From Paludibacteraceae bacterium (GTDB lineage: Bacteria; Bacteroidota; Bacteroidia; Bacteroidales; Paludibacteraceae): a DNA stretch of 53,332 bases. Positions 9,801 to 26,425 of this stretch are shown one piece after another. Location: assembly GCA_905233925.1 (NCBI GenBank), contig CAJOFV010000007.1, positions 1 to 53,332 on the forward strand. Direction: 5' to 3'. Both the position numbers and the translations under genes were made by a program. Every line of letters begins with the position of its first letter. Positions within the stretch are counted from its first letter, which is position 1. The notes beneath the pieces are model-generated. The model was given only the letters and a program-made list of their open reading frames with translations, did not search any database and had not been told where the DNA came from.

Positions 9801-12800
9801 AAGCATCCTTCTCTCCAATATTTCCCGTTGCAGCGAAGCCTGTGTTATCAAATGCGATATTCCATTTCCAATTGGCATAATTGTTACTGAGATAAGCCTC
9901 AGGGATTTCATAATAGAATATATCGGAGGTTCCCAATTGTTCCATCTTGTAATACGGTTTTCCATTATTGGATGGTGCATTTCCTTTACTACTATTAAAT
10001 TCGCAATCAAAGGTTACATACACATCATCCCAGCCGAGATTGTTCTTGAAATAAACCATTGGTTCTTCCGTGTACTCGGCGGTAATCGTTGTCATGTCAG
10101 ACGCATTAACGGTAGTGGATTTCTCGGTCGGATCTCCGAATGTTACCTTCCCTGCTTCGCCACTCCATATAGAGAATGCATATCCCAATATCTCCGGAGC
10201 CTCAATTTCGGCGGCAAGTGAGGTGGCTGAAGCATTGACTGTCGTCGACGGACGTAGCACTATATCGCCACACTTATATTGCACCGTTACGGTATAGGTA
10301 CTTTCGAACCGTGCATAGAGTATATGGTTGGAAGCCGTGCTGACAAGCGTTTCTGCAGTTACGCGCGTTCCTTCACCAGAAGGCGTTGTGTACCAACCGG
10401 CGAACTGTCTGCTGGCATGCGTTGCCGTCGGTAACTCGCCGTATGCCGAAGCAAATGTTACTCCCTTGCTTGCCGTAGCACACGTACCGCCATTCGTCGT
10501 CGCATCAAACGTTACGGTATAATTATTCGGGGTATATTGCGCATAAACATCTTTTGCAGCATTGATTGTCAGTTGGTTGCTTCCATTTACGCCCGCAGAA
10601 ACATCTCCGTCTGCCGTGGTGTACCATCCCTTGAACGTATAACCACTGGCTGCCGTTTGTGAGAACGTAACCACATCATTTTTCAATACGTAATCACCCG
10701 AATCGAATGCGCCACTATTGGTTCCCGTTGCCGATACACTTGCGCCACCCGTGCCGTAACCATAGTTGACGATGTACGCCGCAGGATAAGTAACGGTCAT
10801 AACCTTAGTACTTGTATTGAATGAGAACGTATAATTGCCCGCATAGTCAGTCGTGATAGTGAGGTTATTCTCATCCGAAGCATTCAATGTCGCAGAATTA
10901 GATTCGCGCGTCAGTGCGGTCGAGTTTTTGCTGTAATATTCAGCATTAAATATCGGTTTAAACGCGTATGTGCTATTAGCTGTAAGGGCAACTGTCTTGG
11001 TGACAGTTCCACTACCGGTCATTGTAAGGAAGTCAAAAGTTCCTCCTCCGGCAGTAGTCTCTATCATCAATGTCGGGTCAGCATACGGGCAGAGCATTTC
11101 GCCCATACGGTCACCCTGTGCGCCTTCCGTAGGATGATACCAATAGCACTTGTCAGCAAACGTATTTACAAAATCATCTGTTTGATTAGAACCGTTTTCA
11201 CTAATGATGAATTTGCTATATTCCGTTGACAATGTGTAGGTATACCAAACGTAGGTCGTTCCAGTAATGGACGATGTCATTGCAACTCCTGGCCAATCGG
11301 CATTCTGCGCTTTAATGCCGTCACAATCATTCGCATCAGTCCATGCATAAATCTTTGGTACGGCACGTCCGACTGCACTGCGCACTTGAATCGTGTTCGT
11401 TCCCGCTGCACGGGTAGTGATAGATTTGGAATTAGTGCTGACACCTGTACCGTGGATATTTTCTGCATACGCTTTTACGGTATATGCCGTTCCCGCCGTC
11501 AGACCAGTGATATACCCCCAAAAATAATCACCATCGTTGTTCTTGCACGTCATCGGATACTTTGTTTCTCCGATTTTGAATCCGACCTCTTTCATGTCTG
11601 TCGCATGGTTTCCATCACCTCCATAATTGGTAATGTGACCCGTGACGAAAATCATTGTCGTATTAACCATATAACTAGCATCGTCGCCTGTTGACACCTC
11701 AACTGTCGGATCGGTTACCGTAACGGATTGCAGGTTGCCCAATCTAAATGCATCTATATACCAATATGTATTTGGAGCATACGTAGATATGTTAACATTC
11801 AAATCGTTTGTCTTGACATCATTTCCACTATCTTGTTCCCCATTCTTGTTGAGAATGAACGTAGTCGCTTTTCCGTCTAATGTCACGGTATACCAAGAAT
11901 TGCTGCCATTGTATTTGGGACTTTCTGTGCCCGGCCAACTGCCGTTTGCTTCATCGTTGTATGTATAGATACTCATCTTCCCCCAATTCTGAACATCATG
12001 CACATAAATATCCCACTTTCTACCAATGATGCTTGTGTAGGTCGCCGTCTGCGTGCCGTTATACGTTATCTTTACGGTATATTGTTTGCTGATGTCGTCA
12101 CCAAACGAAGGTGTGATACTGAATTCGTGCGAGTGCGTTGTCGCAGAAGTGGAACCACTCCATGTCGCAACCGGATCACCCGTTGCCGTTGCGCCGGCAT
12201 ATACATCATATTTGATAGTCTTACCCGATGTAACATTACCAACCGAAGCTGTCAGCGTAGAGGCATTACCAGAATAAACGGAAGTTGCTGTCCACGACAA
12301 TGATGGTGGGAACGTAATTGTTACAGTGGGCGAAGCCGGAGTGGAATAGTCCACCATAATCTCATAGTCACCGGCCACATCGGCACATATTTGAACGTTA
12401 TCGTTGTTGGTACTATGATTTATCATCGGTTGTGTTCCATAATCCCGTTTATATAGCCAATCATATGAGCAATTATCTGTATGCAATCCGAACCATGTAT
12501 TACCTGGACTTACGACTTTAAAGTTGTAATCGGCATTTCCGCCTTCCGGATTAGTGCCAGAAATCGAAACAGTATAATAGCCTACATCCTCTGTGGAATG
12601 ACCAGACTTTTTGGTAAGTGCTAAACGTTGGTTCCAGGTGTCATTCCCAAACACACTACCACCACATATAACCCATCCTCCGGTTGACAAATCCTCTGTA
12701 TAATTGGCGGTAATCGTGTAGGTTCCGCTTGATTTAGTTTTAATGGATATAGGACTCGATGAGGTTGATGTTGTGGCTGTAATTCCGGATTCAACAGTCC

Positions 12801-15147
12801 AACTACTAAACGTATAACCACTAATCGCAGGTGCTGAAACTTCACTTGTTGTTACCTCACCGACATTACTTTCAGTAGTGGAGTTCTTGATAGTTGTTTC
12901 TCCGTATTTATATTGAACCGTAACATTGTGTTTCGTCTCTGCGAAGTTCGCCGTTACAGTAGCTGAACCGCGGGCGGTCATAGCATATACACCCGTAGCT
13001 GCATTCGTCGAAATTTCACCATCACCCGTTTTGGTCCAGTTAACAAAGTGATAACCGCTATTTGCTTGCGCGTATATATTTAGGTTTTGTGCAGTATTAA
13101 TGCCTGTATATGATGCAGAACTCCCCCAGGAACCACCGTCTTTCTTGACTTGTCCATTAGCCCCCGCTACAATATCCAGTTGTCCGTTGGGCAGTGCTTC
13201 GAAGTTCGCTGTCACAGTTGCTCCTGCTGAAGTGGCTGTTATCGTTGTACTTGCCGCACTTGCATCTGCGATGGTGACATTCCCTGATTTCGTCCATCCG
13301 GTAAAACGATAACCACTTGCCGGAGTGGCTGTAATGGCACAATCAGAGGTAACATATTTTGCCGTTACGGTAGTACTCGTCTGATTGCTCATGACTTTAC
13401 CCATCGTACTATTGGCAGTCTGTACAGTAACTGAATATGTTTTTTCAGTCCATTTGGCATATATGGTTGGAGAATTTGCATCCACATCCCAAACGTTAGC
13501 ACTCGTTCCCGAGCTATTGTAGTATTGGGTGCCGCTTCCGCCCGTCGAACCATAATATCCTCCAAAGTCATAACCTGTCTTGGAAGGTTTGTTGGATGCA
13601 ATACTTGGCATTGCGGCACCATAAGTTGCACTTACACTTGCAGCTCCTGCGGTCGTCGCACTTTGGTTGTCGAGAGTTACGGTATATTGTTTAGCCGTCC
13701 ACTTTGCAAAAAGTTCCGTGTCCGCAGTTACTTTATCTGTGCTGAAGTTCCAAGCATTAGTGCAGCCCGTCTCCTTATACCATCCGCCGAAAGTATATCC
13801 TGTCGCCGTTGGCGCAGGCGAAGGTGTTGTAGCTAAACCATTATAGTAAACATTCTGGCTACTAATCGCTGAACCATGAGACTTCATATTGAAAGTAACG
13901 GTAAGCGTTTTTTCAGCGAGGTCTTTTTTGTTATTTGCTCCATCAACGAAATAATAACTTCTTCCTTCAGTATAATTACTTGTGGTCAAGTCATTCGTTT
14001 GCGTTCCGCTGCCATTATTGAGAATGAGGTTGCCTGCTCCAGCCAAAATATCGATTTGATACCAATTACCTCCCAAAGAAGTTACACCTCCAGACCCCGG
14101 CCAACTGCCATTCCTATCGTCTGAATACGTGTAAAGATTCATGGTTCCCCACGAAACGTTGTCATACACATAAATGGTCTTTGCAATCCATCGTGCATAG
14201 AGAGTGGTATTGGCCGTAATGCTGAATGTTGCTCCAGGAGCGTATGTCGTTCCGCCACCATTTTGGGCGGTCATCCAACCATCAAAAGTACATCCGGTCT
14301 TGACCAAACTGCCGGTATTCCCTAAAACGGTTACTGTACTTCCTGATGTATAACTGGTTCCATCTGTTGGCACAGAACCACCGGTCTTTCCGTTGTCGTT
14401 GTAAGTGACTGAATATGAACCAGCAGCACAAGTGATGACAATATTTCCTGTGGACGAATTGTATGTAATGGTTACTGTTCCGGTTCCTGCTGGCTCAAAA
14501 CAAATGTTACTTCCATCATTGCTCTCAGCATAGGGAGAACAATTTGTACCACTAACCATATTGCTATATCCTACACCATTCCACGTACCACACTCAAAAA
14601 TTTTAAAGCGGCAATCTGTTCCACTTGTTACAGAAGAAGATGTCCAAGTATATGTACCATCACTATTATTTGTCATTGAACCGCCACTATTATTCCAACT
14701 ACCGAGTCCGCCCCATGAGTTTCCTGCAATACACATGTCGGGATAAGATGGTGCATCTGGATTTACCGTGGTAGCATAAACCTTACTTCCATTATACACT
14801 ATATACCAAGTGCCGGTTTGAGAACAACTAATATTGTTCCCGTCTCCATTCTGGGTTAATGTAATATTACCTAGACTATTATCAATATGACTCAAGTTTT
14901 TATCATCATCCCAGTTGCAGCCATTTTGTACCTTAAACTCGCCATTACTTGTCGCCGTATAATAATAAGTAGAGGTGCTGCCGACTTGGGTCATGGCAGT
15001 ACATCCCCATGAGTTCATAAAACCACGAACATTTGGAGTGTCAGCATACATTTGTACTATGCCGACTAAGAGCATTACTCCTAATAATACAAGTGTTTTC
15101 CACTTTTTACAACTCCCGCAGAGTTGACTTAATAATTTGTTTTTCAT
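6820..15147 (-). CDS. giant secreted repeat protein A (List-Bact/InlB-type repeats and starch-binding-like modules)
   Basis: 2775 residues with a signal peptide (1-35, ending VQMYA). Approximate order: N-terminal modules (36-240); List-Bact/InlB repeats at 242-322, 410-485, 486-568 and 1456-1610 (signature GYTFGGWY...YAKW); divergent repeats (569-820) of the form SGYHFVNWTKTG...VTANF; CBM26-like modules near 327-400, 1046-1115 and 1250-1330 (IYVHDVQNWGKMSIYTY, NGSWPG, WYTVTL). From about 1690 to the end there is a region clearly homologous to giant B (shared ISFPF-VKLSEVFGFGTYG, ANQGYVLALDLD, GTEGM-VTLIDNV-THTNLA). The last residues, VFVNGLMYIIRGNDVYDANG, form a short C-terminal tail shared with giant B and the phosphatase. 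Probably surface-exposed; binding of glycans is suggested by the CBM26-like modules but not shown. Confidence 0.85.
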   Translation of the reverse strand: MKNKLLSQLCGSCKKWKTLVLLGVMLLVGIVQMYADTPNVRGFMNSWGCTAMTQVGSTSTYYYTATSNGEFKVQNGCNWDDDKNLSHIDNSLGNITLTQNGDGNNISCSQTGTWYIVYNGSKVYATTVNPDAPSYPDMCIAGNSWGGLGSWNNSGGSMTNNSDGTYTWTSSSVTSGTDCRFKIFECGTWNGVGYSNMVSGTNCSPYAESNDGSNICFEPAGTGTVTITYNSSTGNIVITCAAGSYSVTYNDNGKTGGSVPTDGTSYTSGSTVTVLGNTGSLVKTGCTFDGWMTAQNGGGTTYAPGATFSITANTTLYARWIAKTIYVYDNVSWGTMNLYTYSDDRNGSWPGSGGVTSLGGNWYQIDILAGAGNLILNNGSGTQTNDLTTSNYTEGRSYYFVDGANNKKDLAEKTLTVTFNMKSHGSAISSQNVYYNGLATTPSPAPTATGYTFGGWYKETGCTNAWNFSTDKVTADTELFAKWTAKQYTVTLDNQSATTAGAASVSATYGAAMPSIASNKPSKTGYDFGGYYGSTGGSGTQYYNSSGTSANVWDVDANSPTIYAKWTEKTYSVTVQTANSTMGKVMSNQTSTTVTAKYVTSDCAITATPASGYRFTGWTKSGNVTIADASAASTTITATSAGATVTANFEALPNGQLDIVAGANGQVKKDGGSWGSSASYTGINTAQNLNIYAQANSGYHFVNWTKTGDGEISTNAATGVYAMTARGSATVTANFAETKHNVTVQYKYGETTIKNSTTESNVGEVTTSEVSAPAISGYTFSSWTVESGITATTSTSSSPISIKTKSSGTYTITANYTEDLSTGGWVICGGSVFGNDTWNQRLALTKKSGHSTEDVGYYTVSISGTNPEGGNADYNFKVVSPGNTWFGLHTDNCSYDWLYKRDYGTQPMINHSTNNDNVQICADVAGDYEIMVDYSTPASPTVTITFPPSLSWTATSVYSGNASTLTASVGNVTSGKTIKYDVYAGATATGDPVATWSGSTSATTHSHEFSITPSFGDDISKQYTVKITYNGTQTATYTSIIGRKWDIYVHDVQNWGKMSIYTYNDEANGSWPGTESPKYNGSNSWYTVTLDGKATTFILNKNGEQDSGNDVKTNDLNVNISTYAPNTYWYIDAFRLGNLQSVTVTDPTVEVSTGDDASYMVNTTMIFVTGHITNYGGDGNHATDMKEVGFKIGETKYPMTCKNNDGDYFWGYITGLTAGTAYTVKAYAENIHGTGVSTNSKSITTRAAGTNTIQVRSAVGRAVPKIYAWTDANDCDGIKAQNADWPGVAMTSSITGTTYVWYTYTLSTEYSKFIISENGSNQTDDFVNTFADKCYWYHPTEGAQGDRMGEMLCPYADPTLMIETTAGGGTFDFLTMTGSGTVTKTVALTANSTYAFKPIFNAEYYSKNSTALTRESNSATLNASDENNLTITTDYAGNYTFSFNTSTKVMTVTYPAAYIVNYGYGTGGASVSATGTNSGAFDSGDYVLKNDVVTFSQTAASGYTFKGWYTTADGDVSAGVNGSNQLTINAAKDVYAQYTPNNYTVTFDATTNGGTCATASKGVTFASAYGELPTATHASRQFAGWYTTPSGEGTRVTAETLVSTASNHILYARFESTYTVTVQYKCGDIVLRPSTTVNASATSLAAEIEAPEILGYAFSIWSGEAGKVTFGDPTEKSTTVNASDMTTITAEYTEEPMVYFKNNLGWDDVYVTFDCEFNSSKGNAPSNNGKPYYKMEQLGTSDIFYYEIPEAYLSNNYANWKWNIAFDNTGFAATGNIGEKDAFDSGEFLGRGDFDPKATMFIPYNGDSEPRNGGTYYRTGCWMKYNSTDPGYKIYANTFVSGSGGSAVGGTPVLLTAEVAGGFEFKAKVYFPSSNYTYGFMLHKEYAKITNDLWYTNYGTIQSNTNTLPWHFTTDGASENGTRCGLKTEAVGDYEFTVSFGTGRPVVNVEYPVSTGDYRLVYKDNATWSNGAHDANWSHPSRIIKKKANAVDTVSFYVAYGSSPSIKLQTCTSIDGSGKPVWENPGTDVTLGVSAKGIYNYKVTQDAGGNATVAFAGSYTGNFYVRTDASDGGWTNYKTSGANTMTYSEYSLSHGGEGGPFSHYFMRHVNAGSNIKFVVANDYSLCISDTLVDDTYAKEWIEKEANIRFMWYYDTNQIRRAYISGSSNVSDRFLVLEGDEHLYNESGQALTTAGGGKVSGLNDYEMNFIDDQNWIYEATVQANPLERIKLTAKFDKNVQYFYGKEGDRSDENTYQLIGGTGDDKYKVRVVYDFKTNRLVCAWLPDGDVTTAFEVDADVMIIRKHQLDAQQITFSGEGSKLTEVKTVYGAMKFNKWILNNKDESTHENTVLSQWERDLFFISFPFDVKLSEVFGFGTYGKHWIIEYYDGKGRAEKGYWKDSPTNWKFVTKSMMGTYTLEANQGYVLALDLDELGLNSPVWNYGVENVYLYFPSTATVENIQATSKTVNIDQTGYKCAINRTYGTDGDRRIKDSYWHVLGVPSYANANHEAGSSWTGTAPTAPENPAAWTTSVPYVYTWQADDNTMQIMSSSSMTFKPMYSYMVQYSGTSIYWVSVNTTPAAVAARRNADYKSVYEFRLALQQDGEEKDHTYISLRDNDEVTKDFDFNYDLCKMMYGAFSQATNLYTIIGENVEAAGNCLPLETDKATVVPVGVTIGAAGEYTFTMPEGTEGMSVTLIDNVANTHTNLAMTDYTVTLEAGTYEGRFALEIDPRNATTSIDIIGGEGSETAPRKVFVNGLMYIIRGNDVYDANGRKVE

Positions 15148-15175
15148 AATAATTTTATGTTTATAAGTTAATATT
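15136..15175 (-). repeat. 40-bp leader/start repeat, copy A
   Basis: Covers the 28 bases before, and the first 12 bases of, giant gene A. It is identical over 40 bp to 18550-18589 on the opposite strand (giant gene B). Confidence 0.9.
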
Positions 15176-15258
15176 CCTTACGTTTTCAATAGTTATATTT
15201 TTTTCTTGTAAGCACAGGGCAAATCGATGCCCTCTGCCCTAAATACTGTCAGATGAGG

Positions 15259-16101: not shown

Positions 16102-16635
16102 CTACTGAATTTCTTCTGTTATATTGACTTCTGTTTCAACAAATTCATCACCATTGATAATAGGACGATACATGCTGAGTGTGTCCTTATGACCATCAAA
16201 AAATTCTGCTCGAATGAAACCACATTTTAGATAAAACCCAACAGCATCGTATGGTCTTGGTTTGTGTCGGCGAAGAACTAATGCTTCAACTGTCAATATA
16301 TCAGAAGAAAAATCTTCTACTGCAAGCTGTATAATTTTTCGAATAATCGCTGTGCCTAAACCTCGATAATCATATCGTTTATCAACAACAAGAAAAGCTA
16401 TTTCAACGGCCTCCTCATTTTGGGGATCTCTACGTATTGCAAAGAATGCAGCCAATGTACCTCCGTCATAAATGCCATAAGGGACACAATCACTATCCGC
16501 CATTGCTTCAACGAGTCCATTACGGATGTATTTGTGGCGACTATGGATGAAGTCATCCAATTCATCTATACGACATACAAAACCTGCGAACTCGTCAAAG
16601 TTCGTAAAGGGGCAATATGTGAACGTTTGTGCCAT
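16102..16635 (-). CDS. GNAT-family N-acetyltransferase
   Basis: 177 residues. Transfers acetyl from acetyl-CoA to an amine of unknown identity. The GNAT core is visible: AFLVVDKRYDYRGLGTAIIRKI (motif A, R-G-L-G-T for CoA binding), then ILTVEALVL and the conserved tail PYDAVGFYLKCGFI. An N-terminal FDEFAGFVCRIDELDDFIHS region matches the start of many stand-alone GNATs, including some toxin GNATs. It is preceded with a 2-bp gap by a 54-aa frame, and the pair has its own promoter (16842-16873) and terminator, so it behaves as a self-contained cassette. A toxin role, resistance role or protein modification are all open. Confidence 0.8.
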   Translation of the reverse strand: MAQTFTYCPFTNFDEFAGFVCRIDELDDFIHSRHKYIRNGLVEAMADSDCVPYGIYDGGTLAAFFAIRRDPQNEEAVEIAFLVVDKRYDYRGLGTAIIRKIIQLAVEDFSSDILTVEALVLRRHKPRPYDAVGFYLKCGFIRAEFFDGHKDTLSMYRPIINGDEFVETEVNITEEIQ

Positions 16636-16873: not shown

Positions 16874-16980
16874 TATTTGAGCAAAATTTTCTCTTTTTTT
16901 TGCTCAAAGTCGCTTTTTTGCGGTAATCTCAATCTGTCAATGTTCACTTTGCCTCGGTTTTAAGCCCTGGGGCGGGGCTG
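16850..16980. repeat. duplicated cassette block C, copy 1
   Basis: Contains TGCAAATATTTGAGC, an inverted repeat TTTGAGCAAAA/TTTTGCTCAAA, CGGTAAT and TGCCTCGGTTTTAAGCC. Copy 2 at 17314-17441 aligns throughout. The following 55 bp (16981-17034) are unique. Confidence 0.75.
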
Positions 16981-17034: not shown

Positions 17035-17213
17035 GTTTTTATACTTTTCCCTCCGCTCACTGAGCCGGAAGTTAGTCATTAGTTAGATATTAGTTAGTTA
17101 TTCAGCTTACTCAATCGGCACTTAATCGCTCCTTAATCGCCCCTCAACGTTAAACTTTCAACTTTAAACTTTAAACTTTCAACTTTGATTACCGCCACAC
17201 AAAAAAGCGGTAA
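17035..17213. repeat. duplicated cassette block A, copy 2
   Basis: Second copy of 15733-16057, shorter because it has fewer 11-bp units and lacks the middle unique part. It keeps GAGCCGGAAGTTAGTCATT and GATTACCGCCACACAAAAAA. Confidence 0.8.
17110..17142. repeat. 11-bp tandem repeat, 3 units
   Basis: CTCAATCGGCA, CTTAATCGCTC, CTTAATCGCCC: the contracted counterpart of 15811-15865. Confidence 0.8.
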
Positions 17214-17240
17214 CTCCGTTTTTTAGTGGAATTACCGCTT
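17201..17240 (-). terminator. intrinsic terminator left in the gutted cassette
   Basis: Minus-strand AAGCGGTAA (17240-17232) pairs with TTACCGCTT (17213-17205), followed by a T-tract (17206-17201). Counterpart of 16045-16079. Confidence 0.75.
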
Positions 17241-17262
17241 ATTTTGAAAAAGCAAACCGCTT

Positions 17263-17316
17263 CTACATGTTCATGTCTTTGATTATCTGTTGTAAGAACT
17301 TATCACTAACGTTCGC
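17263..17316 (-). pseudogene. 3' remnant of a deleted cassette gene
   Basis: Seventeen codons ending VSDKFLQQIIKDMNM and stop lie between the retained terminator and block C copy 2. The junction with block C falls just where the -7 promoter box lies in copy 1, so the promoter -7 box, start and nearly the whole gene are missing. The tail does not match the GNAT C-terminus, so the lost gene was different. Interpretation as a remnant is inferred from position and from the protein-like composition of the tail. Confidence 0.4.
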
Positions 17317-17441
17317 GACATGTGCAAATATTTGAACAAAATTTTGTTGTTTTTTGCTCAAAATCGCATTTTTTCGGTAATTCCACTATTTCAAAGGTCA
17401 TTTTGCCTCGGTTTTTAAGCCTTGAGGATACGGCTGTAGTT
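17314..17441. repeat. duplicated cassette block C, copy 2
   Basis: Aligns with 16850-16980 (TGCAAATATTTGAAC, TTTTGCTCAAA, TGCCTCGGTTTTTAAGCC). It retains the -33 CAAA but has lost the -7 box. Confidence 0.75.
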
Positions 17442-17481: not shown

Positions 17482-17970
17482 TTATGCACGACTCCTCGCA
17501 CGACGGAGCATAATCGCTCCGGCAAAAAGTGCTGCAAATACAAATAATACCAACGGTTCGCCAACCGGATAATCCTCCGACTGGTTCGCCTCACCCGGCG
17601 TGTCAAAGCCCTTGCGGATGCCAGGTTTGTTGGCGCGGCCGGTGCCTTCAGAAGACGGATTATAGGCATCCGACGGCACCTCATCCGTTCCGACCGGATA
17701 AATGGTCGGCGAATAAGACGAATAACCGGTTGCCTTCGTCTGGTCAACCGTTGTCGAAGCCACTACAAACGGCCGTCCCTCCGCATTCTGCGACCAACCA
17801 AACGGGTCGTTTCCCGCGCTTGCACGGCCAGCCGCACAAGGCATCACTAAAAGAATCATCGTTACCATCCACACACCTGCACGCCACACGCCCGACGTAT
17901 GACTTTTGCTGTTTTGTACCGAGCCCGCGGCTCTTGATGTAACTGCTAACATAATATTCTCGTTTTTCAT
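17482..17970 (-). CDS. small secreted/membrane partner protein A with PVGE-TM-Arg C-terminus
   Basis: 162 residues. An N-terminal hydrophobic segment (about residues 33-50, AGVWMVTMILLVMPCAAGRASA) looks like a signal peptide or anchor, preceded by an unusually long, charged N-region; a later start at MLAVTS (residue 7) is possible. The middle is polar, with IYPVGTDEVPSD and GFDTPGEANQ. It ends PVGEPLVLFVFAALFAGAIMLRRARSRA: a Pro-Val-Gly-Glu motif, one membrane helix, then an Arg-rich tail. The same architecture and VPSD/PVG motifs occur in the 123-aa protein behind giant B, so the two are paralogues. Its promoter lies inside an inverted-repeat-bounded segment. Function unknown; probably works with the giant proteins. 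Confidence 0.75.
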   Translation of the reverse strand: MKNENIMLAVTSRAAGSVQNSKSHTSGVWRAGVWMVTMILLVMPCAAGRASAGNDPFGWSQNAEGRPFVVASTTVDQTKATGYSSYSPTIYPVGTDEVPSDAYNPSSEGTGRANKPGIRKGFDTPGEANQSEDYPVGEPLVLFVFAALFAGAIMLRRARSRA

Positions 17971-17986
17971 CAGTATGATTATTTAA

Positions 17987-18005
17987 TCGACCATATAATG
18001 GGGCA
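17987..18005. repeat. inverted repeat 1, left arm (promoter segment)
   Basis: TCGACCATATAATGGGGCA; pairs with 18182-18200 with one mismatch over 19 bp. Lies in the 5' leader of small protein A. Confidence 0.85.
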
Positions 18006-18082
18006 CAATCCGACACCAAACCAACGGCGCCACAATGCCCGTTTTACACCCCCTATTACGGGAGCATATAAAATTATCGCGG

Positions 18083-18114
18083 CAAAGGTACTACATATAT
18101 TACATATATGCAAA
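18083..18114 (-). promoter_or_regulatory. promoter of small protein A, inside inverted repeat 1
   Basis: TTTG (18114-18111), 20 bases, TACCTTTG (18090-18083), minus strand, extended -33 TTTGCATATATG. It is enclosed by the inverted repeats 17987-18005 and 18182-18200, so inversion would point it toward giant gene B. Confidence 0.85.
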
Positions 18115-18181
18115 TATTTTACCAAAAAAATATATTTTTTACGTGTTTTTGCCCCATTTCGGACGAAATAAACGCCGCAAA

Positions 18182-18200
18182 TGCCCCCTTATATGGTCGA
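18182..18200. repeat. inverted repeat 1, right arm
   Basis: TGCCCCCTTATATGGTCGA, the reverse complement of 17987-18005 with one mismatch; the enclosed segment is 176 bp. Confidence 0.85.
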
Positions 18201-18213
18201 ATAGCGGGACAAA

Positions 18214-18262
18214 GTTGAAAGTTGAAAGTTGAAAGTGGAAAGAGGAAAGGGGAAAGTGGAAT
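18214..18262. repeat. 7-bp tandem repeat, 7 units (GTTGAAA type)
   Basis: GTTGAAA x3, then GTGGAAA, GAGGAAA, GGGGAAA, GTGGAAT: a clear 7-bp period with progressive divergence. Confidence 0.85.
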
Positions 18263-18270
18263 ATAGAAAA

Positions 18271-18298
18271 GCAGCGGCTCGCTGCTGAACAACGAGCC
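18271..18298 (+). promoter_or_regulatory. alternative hairpins in the giant-B upstream region (possible attenuator)
   Basis: GCAGCG (18271-18276) can pair with CGCTGC (18280-18285), or GGCTCG (18276-18281) with CGAGCC (18293-18298). The two stems exclude each other and lie before the terminator at 18343-18366, as in attenuation leaders. Functional role is inferred. Confidence 0.3.
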
Positions 18299-18310
18299 GG
18301 AGAACATTGA

Positions 18311-18326
18311 CATACTGAAAACAAAC
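18311..18326. repeat. inverted repeat 2, left arm
   Basis: CATACTGAAAACAAAC, the exact reverse complement of 18460-18475; encloses 133 bp. Confidence 0.9.
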
Positions 18327-18342
18327 AGACTGCTTACAAGAA

Positions 18343-18366
18343 CGGTGTGAAATACACCGGTTTTTT
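18343..18366 (+). terminator. intrinsic terminator inside inverted repeat 2
   Basis: CGGTGT (18343-18348), loop GAAAT, ACACCG (18354-18359), then GTTTTTT. It would stop rightward transcription before giant gene B in the present orientation. Confidence 0.65.
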
Positions 18367-18459
18367 GCAAATTCGCAAATTTATTTACAAAAAAATGCTA
18401 TAATTCCGTAAATTTATACGACTAAACACTATATAAATCCGCGAAAACGCATTTCTCGA

Positions 18460-18475
18460 GTTTGTTTTCAGTATG
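18460..18475. repeat. inverted repeat 2, right arm
   Basis: GTTTGTTTTCAGTATG, the exact 16-bp reverse complement of 18311-18326, 102 bp before the giant-B start. No consensus promoter is visible between 18476 and 18577. Confidence 0.9.
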
Positions 18476-18549
18476 AAAAGAGTTCTTTTGAATGATAATA
18501 GATAGTGATAAAACCGCAAAAAGATTAACTGAAAATCAAAAACGTTGAT

Positions 18550-18589
18550 AATATTAACTTATAAACATAAAATTATTATGAAAAACAAA
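18550..18589 (+). repeat. 40-bp leader/start repeat, copy B
   Basis: Identical over 40 bp to 15136-15175 on the opposite strand. Covers the AT-rich leader and first four codons (MKNK) of giant gene B. Confidence 0.9.
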
Positions 18590-21500
18590 ATCTTAAAATC
18601 GTTATTGATAGCTATTGGGCTATTGGCGACAAGTTTAACGACCCAGATGTGGGCGGCGGATTACATTTTAGGCCCTGATGGTTCTTGGACTCAAAATGCA
18701 GCACACACGATGGGTTCGTCAGGTATTACGAATTGGGTGTATAAAAACCTTACTCCTTCTGGGCAATGGACTAATTTTAAAGTTCTAAATAGTGGCACGT
18801 GGTACGGTAAAAATTCTGGAGGTAACAATGTTACCGTTGGAAGTGAATATACGCCAACAACAACAGGAGATAATATGTATTGTGACTTTACATCGAACTA
18901 TAGTAACATGTCGTATTATTTCTTCTTTAATACATCCACTCACAAACTGATTATTCAGCCTGACTATTATTTGGCTGGAACGTGCGGTGCATCTAATCAA
19001 AGTTGGGGACAAACGCAAAACAAAACTACTTATGATGCGACGAACGGATATTTCAAATGGAATACGTGTTCATTAACAGCCGGAACTGAATACTCTTTTA
19101 AATTATGCGGTTATAATTCATGGACATACCAAAGAGGAGATGCTTCTAACGTGACCATTACACAAGGCACAAAGACATCAAGTGGTAGCGGAGATATTAA
19201 GTTCCAATCCACCTATGCTGGTACAGCCGTTATTACATTTGTTCCGACGTCCAACGATATGGTTATTCACTGTCCTTACCAAATCTCATACAATAAGGGT
19301 GCAAATGGTTCAGGCACAGTTGCTAGCGGCTCCAAAACATGGAATGCTAGTTTCACGCTCTCATCCTCGACTTTCACTCGTGCCGGTTATACACAAGACG
19401 GTTGGTCTACTTCGGATGGCGGGGAAAAGGTGTATGATTTAGGCGGCAGTTATACGACGAACGCTGATTTAACCCTCTATCCTCACTGGACTGAAAACAT
19501 GTCCTCTGTTACCTTGACAGCTTCGCCGAGCGGAAAAGGTTCGTTTACAATTGGTGGCTCTGCCGCAACTAGTACTTCTGTAGGTGTTACTACAACCAAG
19601 TCTGTGACAGCTGTTCCTATTTCTGGTTATCATTTTGTTAGCTGGGCTATAACAGGCGGTGCGACAATCAGCAGCACTACCACAAACCCGACAACAGTGA
19701 CCGGTGGAGGCGCAGGGACAGCTGCAACGCTTACTGCTACATTTGCAGCAGATGACGTTTACACACTGACCGTTGCAGCAGGTACAGGTATATCTGCCGT
19801 AACCGGTACGACAAATAATATTAAGGCGGGTGATAACATCGCAATTACGGCCACCGTTGCTCCTGGTTATACATGGAGTACTTGGACAAAGACAGGTGCA
19901 GGTACACTCTCTACCTTTACTGCCGGTACTAAGAACCAAACCGTAACTGTCGGTACAGCAGGAGATATAACACTTACTGCTTCTGCGACAGAGAATATGT
20001 CCACGCTGACGACCTCCAATCATTATGATGCAGGCGACCCGAGTTATAGCGCACCGACTATTTCTGGTTCTGCGACTAATGTGGGTTATGTAACGACACG
20101 CGAGATTACTGCTCCGGCAGCCGGAACGGGCTATAATTTCGTTGGTTGGACATTGACAAATTGTACGCGTACGGATGGAGGAGGAGCAACTGCAAACCCG
20201 ATTACCATTCGTTCAAATGGAGATGGCGCAGCTGCAACCGTTGTGGCGAATTATGAAGAGGTTTTGACTACGAGTTATGTGATTGTGGGTGGATCTGCCA
20301 TTGCGGGTACACCAACTTGGTCTAACACAATCTCATTTAGCAAGAAATCCGGTGAGGCAGCGAGCAACGTTGCATACGCTGAGATACCTATTTCTGACGT
20401 TATAGCAGAAGGTACGAAAGGCAACTACGAGTTTAAGATTAAAGACGGTGATACTTGGTATGGTCTTAACGGAAATGGGAATGTGTGGGATTATTATAGC
20501 AATTCCGGAGAGCAAACATTAGTAACGGGTGATAACATTCGACTGAACGCGAATGTAGTTGGTACTTACATCGCTAAAATAGACTACACTTCTGATCCGA
20601 AAATTACCATTACTTGGCCGGTGGCATTGTCGATTTATCGTTCGGATCCCAATGACGATACTAATGTGGGTGACCATGCATGGAGTACTATGCCAACCAG
20701 TACCAGTTATCGTTGGACACTCAATCTGGAAGCCAATACGACTTATGAATTCAAGATTAATGATAAGGGGACGTACTATGGCAGTAATACAGATATTACA
20801 ACATCTATTTCTAACAGAGATTTCGCGACAAACACTAACGATACCAAGTTAATTACCAAATCAGCAGGGACATTCACATTCACTTGGGATGCGAGCACTC
20901 ATAAATTAACTGTACAATATCCGAAATCAGCCGCTATCAGTGCCTCGCCGGCTTCGGTATATGATGAAGGGACAACAGCTCTTACCGGCTATGCGTCTGA
21001 ATTAGGTTCCGGAAGCCATACTATCACATACGAATTCTTTAAGGGAACGACTTTGACAGATGCCAATAAGATTGCAACGAAATCAAAGACAGAATCTGAG
21101 ACCTATCAGGAAGTTACTCAAGATAATGTTACGGTTGACTTTGACGGAAATGCAACAAGTCAAGTTTATACCATTCGCATAAAAGAAGGTAGCGATGTAC
21201 TTGCAACCAATACCGTAACCGTTTATCGCAAATGGGATATTTATGTACATGATGTAGCTTCTTGGGGAGGAATGTATATCCACATGTGGGGTAACGGAGA
21301 AACCACGTGGCCTGGAAATGAGTGTTCCTTATATAATAGTAGCACATCCTGGTATACAGTAACTCTTGATGCCAAGTATCCGCACTTCCAGCTTAACTGC
21401 AACAACTGTACTGATACCAAGCGTACTTATGGCGGAGATGATGCATATACACCCAATATTTCTACCTTCTCCCCCGGTTCTTATTGGTACACCGAGTTTC

Positions 21501-24500
21501 ACGATCACGGAGGTGATGGGCATGACTATTATACATTACACTCTATTACGCTCACTGATCCGACTGTTACGTTATCTGCTTCCATAGCGAACTGCAAGGA
21601 TATCACATTAACCGGTACAGTTACCGACTGCGGTAATGATGGTTCGTTTGCATCAGACATGAAAGAGGTTTACTTCGAAGTGGGAGGAACGAAGAATGCC
21701 GCAACAACAGTCAGTATAACGGATGGCACATTTACCAAGACGCTCTCAAATGCTACCGCAGGAGCTACCAACACTCTGCAAGCCTTTGCCACCAATATTC
21801 ATGGCACCGGTTCAAGTAGTACGTTGCATTATACCAATGTAACATTAGACCGTCAAAACGGAACAACCGGAACAACTGCTGTAACAGCTGTAGATGGTAT
21901 GGCAATGCCTGCCGGTGCATCCGCGCCCGGAAGAACAGGTTACACCTTCGGCGGCTATTATGCATCTACTAGCGGTGGCGGCAAACAATACTACAATGCT
22001 TCGATGGGAAGCGCAAACAACTGGGATCAAACGTCTCAAGCAAAGACCATTTATGCCAAGTGGACTGCAAATACATGGTATGTCCGCTTCAATAAGAATG
22101 GAGGTACCGGTACAATGAGTAACGAGTCGTTTACCTACGATGCGTCAGCAAAAGCATTGACGACGAATACATTCACCAAGCCCGGCTACAATTTTAGCGG
22201 ATGGGCAACTACGCAAGAGCGAGCTAATGCCGGAACAGTCGATTATACCGATGGCCAAACAGTAAGAAACTTGACAAGTACTGCCAATGGTATTGTGGAC
22301 TTGTTCGCAATATGGACAGCAAAGACCACGTCCATTACACTTCATCAAGATGGAGCAAAAACATCGGGTTCCACGACATCGCGCACAGGAACTTATGATT
22401 CAGCAATGCCTGCCATTACTGGTAGTGGTTCGCTGCCTATTGCCCCAGATGGTTATGCATTCATGGGCTATTATGATGATGTTGACGGCGAAGGCATACA
22501 ATATTATAACGCGGACGGTACAAGCGCGCATATATGGGACAAAGTTGATGCCACGGCAGACCTCTATGCTTACTTTAAGAAAGCAGAAATAACAGGTATT
22601 TCTATTTCACCATCTGCCGTAGTGGCACCAGAAACTGCCGTAACTGTGACAGCCACACTAAGTCCTACACCGGCAGGCTCTACCATCGTTTGCTGGAAAC
22701 TACTGCACAGCAATGGTAATGCGTTGGATGAACAACCGACCTTTACTCCGATTACTAATACGCCGGCTTCGCAGACGTCGGTACGTTTCACTGCAAATCA
22801 ACCAAGTGCCTCTTATATCATCGAAGCCACTTTGCGTCCCGGTTCATCCTGCGGAGCGGGAACAGCACTTGATACGAAGGAGGAAACCTTCCAAATAGCC
22901 GGTGACCATGATGTGGCAGTAGAATATAAGTGTGGCGATTTGGTAATTAAGGCAACCGGGGCTGTCACTGGCAAACCATTAGATTGGACAGAGACTACAG
23001 CTCCGGATATTGTGGGCTATTCCTTCTCCAAATGGAAAGCCGGCGATGGAATTACTATTGACGGAGCAGACGAAAACGGAGAGATAGCGACTGCCACTAT
23101 CCAATTCAAGGCTATTTATGATGGAAAATTGACCGCCATTTACACAGCGAAGCGTATGATTTACTTTAATAATACGCTCGGTTGGAGTAGCGTATATGTC
23201 TATTTCTACAAAAACGATAGTTATTGGCAAACTGTCTCTCCATATAATGGTTCTGGAGCAAATCCAGAATATACATGGACAAATACTCCTTACAGTGAAG
23301 AAAAACATGGTCAGATGCAACCTGTAAGTGAAGGTTCGAATATCTACTACTTCGATGCAGAAGCTGCTGGAGTTAATGCTTCCTACGATGATGTGGTCTT
23401 CACAGAACATAACCAACATGGTTACAATTATTTCTATGAAACAAATGCTGTACGCCGTGGAGATTACAAATCCTCTATGCCGATGTTCGTGCCTCTATCC
23501 GGTCAGACAGCAGATGTGCATAATAAAACGAATTACTACAATACTGGTTATTGGATGAACTATCCAGAAAATACGGGTTATACATTATATATTTACAATT
23601 GGTATACAGATGCCAAGGCATCACCCACAAGGACATATCAGTTCCCGTATGGTGAAGGTAAGACAATGCCGTTGAAGTTGGATGTAGAATTCAACGATAC
23701 CCAAAAGAATCAATATTGGATTATGGTATATCGCAATGATGGAACGTATTTAAGCACAAACTATACGTTTAAGCAAGGTTGGAATGACGAGCAGTCAATA
23801 GCTTCGACTGAAAATAAGATAGAACTTTTTACCTCTGCGACAGGTGTATATCACTTCACGCTGACTTATCATCAGAATGGTAATAACAATGATTACTTTA
23901 TTGATGTTGATTATCCGATTGCAAGTAATGACTATCGCATCATTTACAAAGATAATGCTACATGGTCGCATAATGCACATGGTGAAGAATGGTATCACCC
24001 ATCAGACATTATACGACAAATAGATGGAGCAGCCACTGAAGCGAAGAAAGATACCGTTTCCTTCTATATAAGCAAAGCGTCTGGTGCGAATGCAGCAATG
24101 AAATTCCAGAAGGCTAGTGTGACCGGAGAAGGTGTTGTTACTTGGTCGGATGTATCAGGAGGAAGTATAACTATTCCAAGTTCAGTTACCGAATCCGGTG
24201 TATATAACTTCATCGTTTCACAGCCGGTTGGAGGCGGTTCTATATCACTTGAAAAAGCTGAACCTTATACAGGTAATTATTATATCCGTACAGATTGTGC
24301 CAACAGTAAGTGGGATAATTATCGCAGCGATCCGGATCACTTGATAACCTATTCAGAGTATTCCATTGATCATGGAGGATATAGCCACTACTACACACAC
24401 TGGGTAAAATATACAGATACCGGACGTAAGAACGTGAAGTTCTGTATTGCCAATGATTACAGTCCGTCTATTTCAGATACGTTAGCTCGTGAGGATGCTT

Positions 24501-26425
24501 CTTTGAGCGAGTGGACTAATATCGGAAATTACATAGAAGCAGGCGGTGACCTGAAACGTGATGCGAATGTGCGCTTTATGTGGAATCAAAGCACTAATAA
24601 AGTCAGCCGTGCATATATTGACGGTGCACAAGAAGATGGCAGTAACTTCCTTCAGTTACTCAGCAGCGACAGTAAAATTAAGAATAGTACAGAAACGGAG
24701 ATATTAACCGCCGTCACTTTCTCTGATAACGAAAACTGGATTTATGAGGCTAACATCAAGGCGCAAACGAATGCACAATACCGACTAAAATCCACTTGGG
24801 GAACGAGCAACACTATTGAGCAGTACTTCAAAGGAAAAGCCGATGGCACGACCGAAACACTCATTGGCGGTAGCGGTACGGCGTGGTATGATATCCGTTT
24901 GTTGTATGACTTCAAGACCAACCGTATCGTTGCATCCTACGTGCCTGCTAGCGGTAATAGTGATTCGGAATTAGCGATTAATGCAGATGTGATGTTCATC
25001 CGTGATCATCAAGGTGATATCGCTCAATTGACGTTCGGCACTAATGGTAAAATCTCGGCGATTAAGACCGCGTATGGTGTATTAAGACTCAACAAGTGGA
25101 CATTGAATAATAAGGAAAGAGAGATAAGAGATGGCAAGCACAATGTATTAAGCAGTCCGGCATCCATTTATGAGCGTTCGCTATACTTCATATCCTTCCC
25201 GTTCCGTGTTAAATTGAGTGAAGTATTCGGTTTCGGCACCTACGGTACACATTGGGCTGTACAGCGTTACGACGGTGCGGACCGTGCGGCAAGAGGTCAC
25301 TTCCAAGAGAATGGAAACTTCTGGAAATGGATGAATCGTAACACAGAATATTTGGAGCCGAACCAAGGTTACCTCTTGGCCATTGATTTGGACTTATTAG
25401 GCGAGAGCTCCAGTGTCTGGGGACCTGAAAGTAAGAGTGAGCGAATTGAACTCTACTTCCCATCCTTCGGAACGATGCCAAATATTACAAATGCTGATGT
25501 TAGACAAGAACTTCCTGCACATACGTGTACTATTAACTGGTATGAATCCGGCAAGGTTCCGGGACCTGACACCGGTGATCCTCGAACCTCATACAATCGT
25601 ACCGTATTTGATAGTCACTGGAATGTGATGAGTGTTCCGACGTATGTCAACACAAGTTCTGTAACGTTTGATGATAATCCAACATGGATAGCGAAGATTG
25701 GGCCTAAGTTCCTCTACACGTGGAATTCGGACGACAATACGATAACAGCGACAACGGCTAGCACATACACTTATCATGCGATGCATGCATATATGGTTCA
25801 GTATTGCGGAGAGGTTGTTTGGTCAGCAAGTAGTGGTTCGCCGTCATCGATAGTAGCACGTCGTACGTATATGGACAAACCGCAAGAGGTTGAGTTCTGT
25901 CTCGAAGTACAACAGAACGACAAGATGATTGACCGGACATATATCAATCTGAGCGATGACGAAGAAGCAAGTGCTTCGTTCAAGTTCGGTGAAGATATGG
26001 CGAAAGAGTTCAACTCCAGAAATGCAAATATCTATACTTTCATTGATAACATGAAGGTTGCCGGTAATACGATGCCTATTGACTTTGAGAAGACAACCGT
26101 TATTCCGTTTGGTGTAGATATTAAGACTGCAGGCGAGTTTACCTTCTCAATGCCGGATGGAACAGAAGGCATTGGTGTAACGCTGATTGATAATGTTCGC
26201 GGCACGCATACGAACCTTGCACTGGGCGATTATGTTGTTGATCTCGAAGCCGGTACTTATGACGACCGCTTCGTTCTGGAGATTTCACCGATAATGAACA
26301 CTCCGACGGATATTGAAGGCGTTGACAGCCATAATGACGATATCCGGAAAGTGATGGTTGACGGAATCCTATACATCGTCAAGGACGGCAAAGTATTTGA
26401 TGCCCGCGGCTCACGCGTGAAATAA
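18578..26425 (+). CDS. giant secreted repeat protein B (paralogue of A)
   Basis: 2615 residues. The start at MKNKILKS is chosen over an in-frame ATG 33 bases upstream because it matches the start of paralogue A within the identical 40-bp leader and gives a good signal peptide (1-26, TQMWA). Approximate order: two beta modules (27-230), List-Bact/InlB repeat (234-306), divergent repeats (307-560), beta modules with WYGLNGNG/WYTVTL, a CBM26-like module (885-951, WDIYVHDVASWGGMYIHMW, TTWPG), three List-Bact repeats (1087-1164, 1167-1248, 1251-1334), an Ig-like group-2 type segment (1335-1440), then from 1525 to the end a region homologous to A. The tail is VMVDGILYIVKDGKVFDARG. Probably extracellular. 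Followed 45 bp later by small protein B. Confidence 0.85.
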   Translation: MKNKILKSLLIAIGLLATSLTTQMWAADYILGPDGSWTQNAAHTMGSSGITNWVYKNLTPSGQWTNFKVLNSGTWYGKNSGGNNVTVGSEYTPTTTGDNMYCDFTSNYSNMSYYFFFNTSTHKLIIQPDYYLAGTCGASNQSWGQTQNKTTYDATNGYFKWNTCSLTAGTEYSFKLCGYNSWTYQRGDASNVTITQGTKTSSGSGDIKFQSTYAGTAVITFVPTSNDMVIHCPYQISYNKGANGSGTVASGSKTWNASFTLSSSTFTRAGYTQDGWSTSDGGEKVYDLGGSYTTNADLTLYPHWTENMSSVTLTASPSGKGSFTIGGSAATSTSVGVTTTKSVTAVPISGYHFVSWAITGGATISSTTTNPTTVTGGGAGTAATLTATFAADDVYTLTVAAGTGISAVTGTTNNIKAGDNIAITATVAPGYTWSTWTKTGAGTLSTFTAGTKNQTVTVGTAGDITLTASATENMSTLTTSNHYDAGDPSYSAPTISGSATNVGYVTTREITAPAAGTGYNFVGWTLTNCTRTDGGGATANPITIRSNGDGAAATVVANYEEVLTTSYVIVGGSAIAGTPTWSNTISFSKKSGEAASNVAYAEIPISDVIAEGTKGNYEFKIKDGDTWYGLNGNGNVWDYYSNSGEQTLVTGDNIRLNANVVGTYIAKIDYTSDPKITITWPVALSIYRSDPNDDTNVGDHAWSTMPTSTSYRWTLNLEANTTYEFKINDKGTYYGSNTDITTSISNRDFATNTNDTKLITKSAGTFTFTWDASTHKLTVQYPKSAAISASPASVYDEGTTALTGYASELGSGSHTITYEFFKGTTLTDANKIATKSKTESETYQEVTQDNVTVDFDGNATSQVYTIRIKEGSDVLATNTVTVYRKWDIYVHDVASWGGMYIHMWGNGETTWPGNECSLYNSSTSWYTVTLDAKYPHFQLNCNNCTDTKRTYGGDDAYTPNISTFSPGSYWYTEFHDHGGDGHDYYTLHSITLTDPTVTLSASIANCKDITLTGTVTDCGNDGSFASDMKEVYFEVGGTKNAATTVSITDGTFTKTLSNATAGATNTLQAFATNIHGTGSSSTLHYTNVTLDRQNGTTGTTAVTAVDGMAMPAGASAPGRTGYTFGGYYASTSGGGKQYYNASMGSANNWDQTSQAKTIYAKWTANTWYVRFNKNGGTGTMSNESFTYDASAKALTTNTFTKPGYNFSGWATTQERANAGTVDYTDGQTVRNLTSTANGIVDLFAIWTAKTTSITLHQDGAKTSGSTTSRTGTYDSAMPAITGSGSLPIAPDGYAFMGYYDDVDGEGIQYYNADGTSAHIWDKVDATADLYAYFKKAEITGISISPSAVVAPETAVTVTATLSPTPAGSTIVCWKLLHSNGNALDEQPTFTPITNTPASQTSVRFTANQPSASYIIEATLRPGSSCGAGTALDTKEETFQIAGDHDVAVEYKCGDLVIKATGAVTGKPLDWTETTAPDIVGYSFSKWKAGDGITIDGADENGEIATATIQFKAIYDGKLTAIYTAKRMIYFNNTLGWSSVYVYFYKNDSYWQTVSPYNGSGANPEYTWTNTPYSEEKHGQMQPVSEGSNIYYFDAEAAGVNASYDDVVFTEHNQHGYNYFYETNAVRRGDYKSSMPMFVPLSGQTADVHNKTNYYNTGYWMNYPENTGYTLYIYNWYTDAKASPTRTYQFPYGEGKTMPLKLDVEFNDTQKNQYWIMVYRNDGTYLSTNYTFKQGWNDEQSIASTENKIELFTSATGVYHFTLTYHQNGNNNDYFIDVDYPIASNDYRIIYKDNATWSHNAHGEEWYHPSDIIRQIDGAATEAKKDTVSFYISKASGANAAMKFQKASVTGEGVVTWSDVSGGSITIPSSVTESGVYNFIVSQPVGGGSISLEKAEPYTGNYYIRTDCANSKWDNYRSDPDHLITYSEYSIDHGGYSHYYTHWVKYTDTGRKNVKFCIANDYSPSISDTLAREDASLSEWTNIGNYIEAGGDLKRDANVRFMWNQSTNKVSRAYIDGAQEDGSNFLQLLSSDSKIKNSTETEILTAVTFSDNENWIYEANIKAQTNAQYRLKSTWGTSNTIEQYFKGKADGTTETLIGGSGTAWYDIRLLYDFKTNRIVASYVPASGNSDSELAINADVMFIRDHQGDIAQLTFGTNGKISAIKTAYGVLRLNKWTLNNKEREIRDGKHNVLSSPASIYERSLYFISFPFRVKLSEVFGFGTYGTHWAVQRYDGADRAARGHFQENGNFWKWMNRNTEYLEPNQGYLLAIDLDLLGESSSVWGPESKSERIELYFPSFGTMPNITNADVRQELPAHTCTINWYESGKVPGPDTGDPRTSYNRTVFDSHWNVMSVPTYVNTSSVTFDDNPTWIAKIGPKFLYTWNSDDNTITATTASTYTYHAMHAYMVQYCGEVVWSASSGSPSSIVARRTYMDKPQEVEFCLEVQQNDKMIDRTYINLSDDEEASASFKFGEDMAKEFNSRNANIYTFIDNMKVAGNTMPIDFEKTTVIPFGVDIKTAGEFTFSMPDGTEGIGVTLIDNVRGTHTNLALGDYVVDLEAGTYDDRFVLEISPIMNTPTDIEGVDSHNDDIRKVMVDGILYIVKDGKVFDARGSRVK

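Follow-up and report, generated by a model that had tools for sequence, protein, structure and literature searches.

The region between a small gene (A) and a giant gene (B) on contig C7 of a Paludibacteraceae genome (assembly of 1.76 Mb in 126 contigs, 77% complete) contains two inverted-repeat pairs. We propose that pair 2 probably represents the arms of one copy of an inverted-repeat gene cassette distributed across the genus, that this copy is likely an insertion which was once mobile, holds no gene and has placed a terminator between A and B, and that pair 1 is separate and possibly an invertible promoter. At the level of sequence, pair 2 combines a family site, matched arms and, outside them, a hairpin of predicted pseudoknot type, and the family elsewhere includes a short gene-less form and keeps one cargo direction within each group of like copies. 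What an earlier note on this DNA had proposed as a switch thus gives a first handle on a cassette family of uncultured gut Bacteroidales, with the warning that inverted repeats around regulatory signals in these bacteria are not necessarily invertons. To our knowledge, the spread of the AAA_14/DUF4143, YhcG/DUF1016 and BRO/ORF6N gene families is unexplained; matched arms together with a pseudoknot tag would offer a testable unit of movement for these genes. The stretch analysed, all 53,332 nucleotides of contig C7, is referred to as the window; comparisons within the genus used one genome per species, and gene functions were assigned from profile matches.

Two inverted-repeat pairs and the signals they enclose

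Both repeat pairs were confirmed where the earlier note had placed them. Pair 1 (17987-18005 / 18182-18200) matched at 18 of 19 positions and extended to 20 of 22, with its left arm (17984-18005, plus strand) in the 5' leader of gene A and its right arm (18182-18203, minus strand) upstream of the promoter of A. Pair 2, with arms at 18311-18326 (plus) and 18460-18475 (minus), matched at 16 of 16 positions and spans 165 bp without a gene. These were the only pairs in the window of at least 15 nt at 90% identity with spacers of 30-600 nt. When the window was shuffled 150 times with dinucleotides preserved (8.0 Mb in all), no pair of equal score arose, and 300 shuffles of the surrounding 2.5 kb gave no strong pair; under a more permissive rule (at least 19 positions at 90%, or 16 perfect ones), two pairs arose across 20 window shuffles (1.07 Mb). 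Both pairs are therefore real and beyond chance. Looser scans of the window added 17224-17237 / 17375-17388 and 16110-16128 / 16292-16310, the latter a strong pair (18/19) within the 3' part of a GNAT gene. Strong pairs in real DNA numbered four in 620.5 kb of the same genome and five in 400 kb of two relatives, with promoter-box arms in three of each (six of the nine strong pairs sampled outside the window), and the window held three, all between 16.1 and 18.5 kb. Pairs 1 and 2 share no sequence by eye, so that one enzyme would hardly serve both.

The signals inside the two pairs were also as the earlier note described them. The Bacteroidota promoter consensus and the Mpi system were taken to apply to the host genus, as general background and from PMC4747536. 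Pair 1 encloses the predicted promoter of A (18083-18114, minus strand), a Bacteroidota-type TTTG-N20-TACCTTTG with 0 mismatches that points left into A, and pair 2 encloses an intrinsic terminator (18343-18366, plus strand; stem 18343-18359, then GTTTTTTG) that reads right toward B. Terminator-like sites across 17900-18700 numbered four, compared with 1.0 expected. The best rightward promoter candidate for B (18461-18490, plus strand; TTTG-N18-TTCTTTTG) has one mismatch in its -7 box, and its TTTG sits in the right arm of pair 2. The stretch around the A promoter (18071-18150) resembles sequence dispersed in the genus, as does a run of AAAGTTG-like heptads (18211-18258, plus strand); AAAGTTG/AACTTTA runs occur both there and at 17144-17187, and also in many relatives.

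A family of inverted-repeat gene cassettes

When the intergenic region was used as a DNA query, its stretch 18260-18321 found matches in two relatives, both of which carry the same hairpin and arm start at the 3' end of an ATPase gene, with the opposite arm at the 5' end of that gene in one of them. Scanning for the hairpin plus arm start (one genome per species) identified five loci, two in Paludibacteraceae MAGs (goat and roe deer reticulum) and three in uncultured Bacteroidales. Over 56-59 nt, the window's hairpin and arm start were 84-91% identical to cassette ends in five genomes (G032, G163, G009, G197 and G088). One locus (L121) is much like the window, with some 95 nt between its arms and, about 90 nt downstream, a giant gene encoding List_Bact_rpt and InlB-B-type repeats. 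Another (L124/L260) is by eye a short copy of an ATPase cassette, the gene between its arms having an internal deletion, and it too precedes a giant gene that encodes InlB-B-type repeats. A coding remnant at 18270-18350 was considered and rejected, the frame being broken in L014 (still open in L015).

The family hallmark, GATCNTTGANATANTGA, was matched 116 times, in 66 of 178 genus genomes, and its reversed control had no match (matches counted by eye). The anatomy of the family was sampled in 16 regions, chosen mainly for site clustering, together with hallmark loci, which make up a part of the 116 matches. Among distinct sites with 1,300 nt or more on the downstream side, 23 of 53 had an inner-arm partner scoring at least 12, compared with 4 of 424 mispaired controls, and matching fell below threshold at the other 30; with the conserved motif counted too, 46 of 59 sites had a partner within 2.2 kb. 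The inner arms vary between copies and match within a copy. Six of the 46 partnered sites were gene-less elements of 125-208 bp with no open frame of 70 codons. The 17 between-arm proteins scanned represent some of the 38 sites that have a gene there, and included AAA_14/DUF4143 and related ATPases, YhcG/DUF1016 nucleases, BRO-N, ORF6N, ParE and YafQ toxins, a nucleotidyltransferase and two proteins without a Pfam match; no transposase was identified among them. RhuM, DUF3800 and an Mpi-family gene were found among the neighbours scanned. We had considered ends specific to DUF4143 ATPase genes and rejected this as too narrow: by eye the repeats occurred at 4 of 30 ATPase loci, where mispaired controls occasionally score similarly, and other cargo has them too. 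In one genome (G017), two copies of a BRO cassette (L252, 2872-4143 and 6994-8277) are 98-99% identical over two aligned blocks, the homology beginning on the left 7 nt before the family site and continuing on the right beyond the cassette, as far as where the next gene begins.

A predicted pseudoknot lay outside the site at 26 of 58 sites, the window included, compared with 12 of 580 shuffles; its stems differ between genomes, and the 58 sites are non-independent, as sites within one genome can have near-identical flanks. The remaining 32 sites had none under the rules used. Wobble pairs did not tell the two strands of the pseudoknot apart: the count was 26 with G-T allowed, 21 with A-C, 22 and 20 with two meaningless pairings and 16 with Watson-Crick pairs only. 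No match was found in the 7 sources compared with Rfam at gathering thresholds.

Pair 2 carries these family features. Its site (18302-18318, plus strand; GAACATTGACATACTGA), one base off the hallmark GATCNTTGANATANTGA (GAAC), ranked 1 of 106,628 window positions in a weight-matrix scan, a ranking within the window only and by a matrix that, being built from pattern-picked sites, favours the pattern; the right arm came at about rank 10. Outside the left arm lies a hairpin (18270-18299, minus strand), absent from the earlier note, that is predicted to form an H-type pseudoknot, AGCAG/CTGCT with CGGCTCG/CGAGCCG, which read leftward is a terminator-like site. By eye, the closest likeness of the left arm is to the ends of two YhcG/DUF1016 cassettes, those of L254 and L263, and pair 2 may for this reason be a shrunken member of that group. 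In those two cassettes a terminator-like hairpin appears, by eye, inserted in one arm of the inverted repeat.

The three best window matches to the family matrix all fell within 16.9-18.4 kb, with pair 2 first. The second, at 17399-17383 (minus strand), belongs to a third matched pair at 17224-17388 (TAGTGGAATTACCG, 14/14), which is assigned to the same family by its site. This pair, too, spans 165 bp, with the family site on its right flank; inside it, by eye, are a gene end and a broken promoter, as in an internally deleted cassette, and we read it by eye as a decayed cassette. The third (GAACATTGACAGATTGA, 16929-16945, minus strand) lies between the GNAT gene and gene A.

Several observations weigh against reading pair 2 as a cassette copy. 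Its site is one base off, and its own genome has no exact match to the hallmark. In the family at large, inner arms fail to match at 30 of 53 sites and the pseudoknot is missing at 32 of 58. Four pairs of different cassettes with homologous cargo but unlike arms carry that cargo in opposite directions, two of these involving ATPases at 72% identity. The ends of the elements are placed only to within a few bases. The search yielded neither a clean empty site, the flanks themselves recurring within arrays, which spoilt the comparison, nor a transposase among the 17 proteins scanned. Nevertheless, we consider the cassette origin of pair 2 the probable one.

Mobile insertion cassettes and MITEs are bounded by inverted repeats around a passenger without a transposase, and have gene-less short forms. 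The pair 2 family resembles them in having terminal inverted repeats around a passenger gene or nothing, with no transposase among the passengers scanned, and in being dispersed in many copies. It differs in that its inner arms are copy-specific yet matched within a copy, in the predicted pseudoknot outside one end and in the absence of a cognate transposase among the scanned proteins (compared with the accessible parts of PMC3913671, PMC10969869 and PMC4596501). Integron cassettes, including the gene-less ones of superintegrons (accessible part of PMC11014356), are likewise clusters of single-gene units parted by structured repeats that are near-identical within a genome; in the pair 2 family, however, the genes lie between inverted arms, with no integrase identified, and the likeness is one of layout. 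The window's genome had three PF00589 matches, none of them on C7. No description of the cassette family was found in the literature searched, in part and with most subscription journals out of reach.

Cargo direction and candidate enzymes

The earlier note had taken pair 2 for an invertible terminator, a reading that found no support in the family. Among the 38 sites with a gene between the arms, we defined like inner arms as those agreeing at 11 or more of 14 positions. Cassettes with like arms and homologous cargo formed five groups of 13 cassettes, and all 13 were concordant: in 12 of 12 pairs the cargo points the same way as seen from the hallmark end. We thus saw no sign of inversion among these like copies, nor, among them, the two orientations expected of invertons. 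When homologous cargo with unlike arms was compared, 24 pairs had the same direction and 11 the opposite; in seven of these 11, only the two hallmark ends of a single BRO cassette (L252) are being compared, and the other four, between different cassettes, were the ATPases of L264 against those of L254 and L245 (72% each), L261 against L265 and L226 against L257 (24% identity each). Over longer times a gene apparently can sit in either orientation. These comparisons are across different species, so that rare inversion within a strain would escape them, and the window copy itself is without a comparator. No report of an invertible terminator with phase variation was found in the literature searched, most subscription journals being out of reach.

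The earlier note had also looked to a recombinase, together with the same repeats at other loci, as support for its switch. The recombinase part held: both serine recombinases found in the genome exceed the NCBIfam cut-off for the Mpi master DNA invertase (302.7 and 308.1, compared with 272). Their genes are on contigs C10 and C78 and not on C7, which had no PF00589 or PF00239 match. The part concerning the repeats did not hold, as no second pair 1 site was found.

Some cassette sites lie near recombinase genes. Seven of 34 sites were within 2.5 kb of a PF00239 match (by eye, in the 61 genomes common to both lists), and a looser version of the site occurred at 5 of 31 recombinase loci, compared with one in 1.02 Mb of background. 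The looser site was also found at 3 of 30 DUF4143 ATPase loci, 1 of 30 A-like loci and 2 of 29 promoter/heptad loci (both found through the hairpin), and at 0 of 30 B-like loci and 0 of 24 loci with the pair 1 pattern; neither Mpi-family gene of the window's genome had one within the locus examined. Because the association with recombinases is little stronger than that with DUF4143 ATPases (5/31 compared with 3/30), we regard the linkage of cassette sites to Mpi-family genes as suggestive only, and such genes may do no more than share the same islands. At L261 (about 5640-5850), a cassette end lies, by eye, within a truncated Mpi-family recombinase reading frame.

We infer that each cassette moves as a unit, served in trans by an enzyme for which Mpi-family serine recombinases would be the nearest suspects by linkage, and that pair 2 arrived in the window as such a mobile unit and then lost its gene. 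A wider and doubtful proposal is that Paludibacteraceae have an integron-like cassette system of new build, in which units with copy-matched inverted arms, a fixed outer core TTTGANATANTGA and a pseudoknot tag would be shuffled by a trans-acting recombinase, perhaps a serine invertase of the Mpi family, which would place ATPases, nucleases, toxins and regulators between the genes for giant surface proteins; pair 2 would then be a gene-less cassette whose terminator decides whether a flipped promoter reaches B.

Two other explanations of pair 2 were weighed against a cassette origin. The switch of the earlier note was a two-input gate, in which both segments invert and promoter and terminator jointly decide the expression of A or B. 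The two signals do lie in the right segments and directions, Mpi-family invertases are encoded and a few homologous cassettes with unlike arms lie opposite. But the gate would need pair 2 to flip, and the evidence points mostly the other way: pair 2 belongs to a dispersed family in which like arms and cargo keep one direction, and the two pairs are without common sequence. Nor were the repeats kept as pairs in relatives, a finding that the earlier note had itself named as telling against the switch: both pairs were absent upstream of all six close B homologues with 1,500 nt available, and neither was present at the two closest homologues of A. A seventh close B homologue (L156) had only 125 nt available upstream, and the upstream region of another (L157) held an unrelated 17/19 pair and one lone family motif. 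The gate is very unlikely, even though the four opposite-direction cassette pairs led us to raise our estimate of it by a trace. The least likely of the explanations considered is that pair 2 forms an RNA stem, its arms pairing in the leader transcript of B as an attenuator. The segment does fold with its arms paired and the terminator inside, but none of the promoters with at most one mismatch reads rightward into the left arm. Moreover, in the full cassettes viewed the promoter-side arm lies, by eye, upstream of the cargo's own promoter, so that the two arms are not both on the cargo's transcript.

Pair 1 and the expression of genes A and B

The earlier note's comparison of pair 1 with the invertible promoters of Bacteroidales fared better. 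Like the invertons recombined by Mpi and Tsr in Bacteroides fragilis (accessible parts of PMC4747536 and PMC11892184), pair 1 consists of inverted repeats around a TTTG/TAnnTTTG promoter beside predicted surface-protein genes, in a genome that encodes site-specific invertases of the Mpi family. Unlike them, it lacks the further loci with the same arms that are usual for a global invertase, has no linked recombinase and is known from sequence alone; pair 2 differs further from these invertons in having no good promoter inside and arms that belong to cassettes. In its own genome (77% complete), the arms of pair 1 occurred nowhere else at up to 2 mismatches and at two further places at 3 mismatches, compared with five for the reversed control. 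Across 101 genus genomes, matches at up to 2 mismatches numbered 26, including the window's two, compared with 38 for the control (summed by eye). At the two closest A homologues (58% and 47% identity), a promoter-like -7 box was seen by eye, within a different upstream region. Pair 1 is local, and appears to be recent or fast-changing.

Given the perfect promoter inside, the strong arms and the genome's two Mpi-family invertases, we favour as the likeliest single reading of pair 1, tentatively and at somewhat less than even confidence, an invertible promoter recombined by one of these enzymes. Membership of the cassette family was rejected, pair 1 ranking about 820 of 106,628 window positions, as was an RNA hairpin, because the right arm lies upstream of the A promoter and the two arms are not on one transcript started there. 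It is unlikely, though less so than what follows, that the arms are the terminal repeats of a non-flipping miniature element by which A acquired its promoter. Such an element would suit a region rich in repeat-bounded elements, the AAT seen by eye directly on both outer sides of the arms and the changed upstream region of the two A homologues; against it stand the control-level matches of the arms in the genus, their absence elsewhere in the genome and the lack of a cassette-family score. Most operators are shorter than near-identical arms of 22 nt. This general consideration, and the absence of the arms at the two closest A homologues, make it improbable that the arms are two inverted operators of a regulator that loops across the A promoter, an arrangement that would otherwise fit one arm lying upstream of the promoter and the other in the leader.

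In the sequenced state, the perfect promoter is predicted to drive A, and B is predicted to be expressed at a low level, since B has a single, imperfect promoter candidate and any transcription coming from the left would run into the terminator. If pair 1 flipped as an invertible promoter, the promoter would face B but meet the terminator at 18343-18366, and flipping pair 1 alone would therefore not switch B on.

Gene A (17482-17970, minus strand) encodes a protein of 162 aa, predicted to be secreted, that ends in PVGE, a hydrophobic stretch and RR. It had no Pfam or NCBIfam match, and matches to it were found in 54 of 101 genus genomes (its own included), mostly to the C-terminal part only. 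Gene B (18578-26425, plus strand; ATG at 18578) encodes a giant predicted surface protein with List_Bact_rpt / InlB-B-type repeats, and among 178 genomes searched (its own included) seven others had close homologues, at 64-74% over the N-terminus. Just upstream of B, 39 nt (18539-18577) are 90% identical to 15148-15186 on the minus strand, upstream of the giant gene at 6820-15147, which points to a shared leader or a duplication. A-like and B-like genes may function together. In L046/L161 (G022) and L061 (G070), a PVG-type A-like small protein is fused in frame with the downstream giant protein, with a second signal-peptide-like start between the two parts, and the giant part of the G022 fusion is a close homologue of B.
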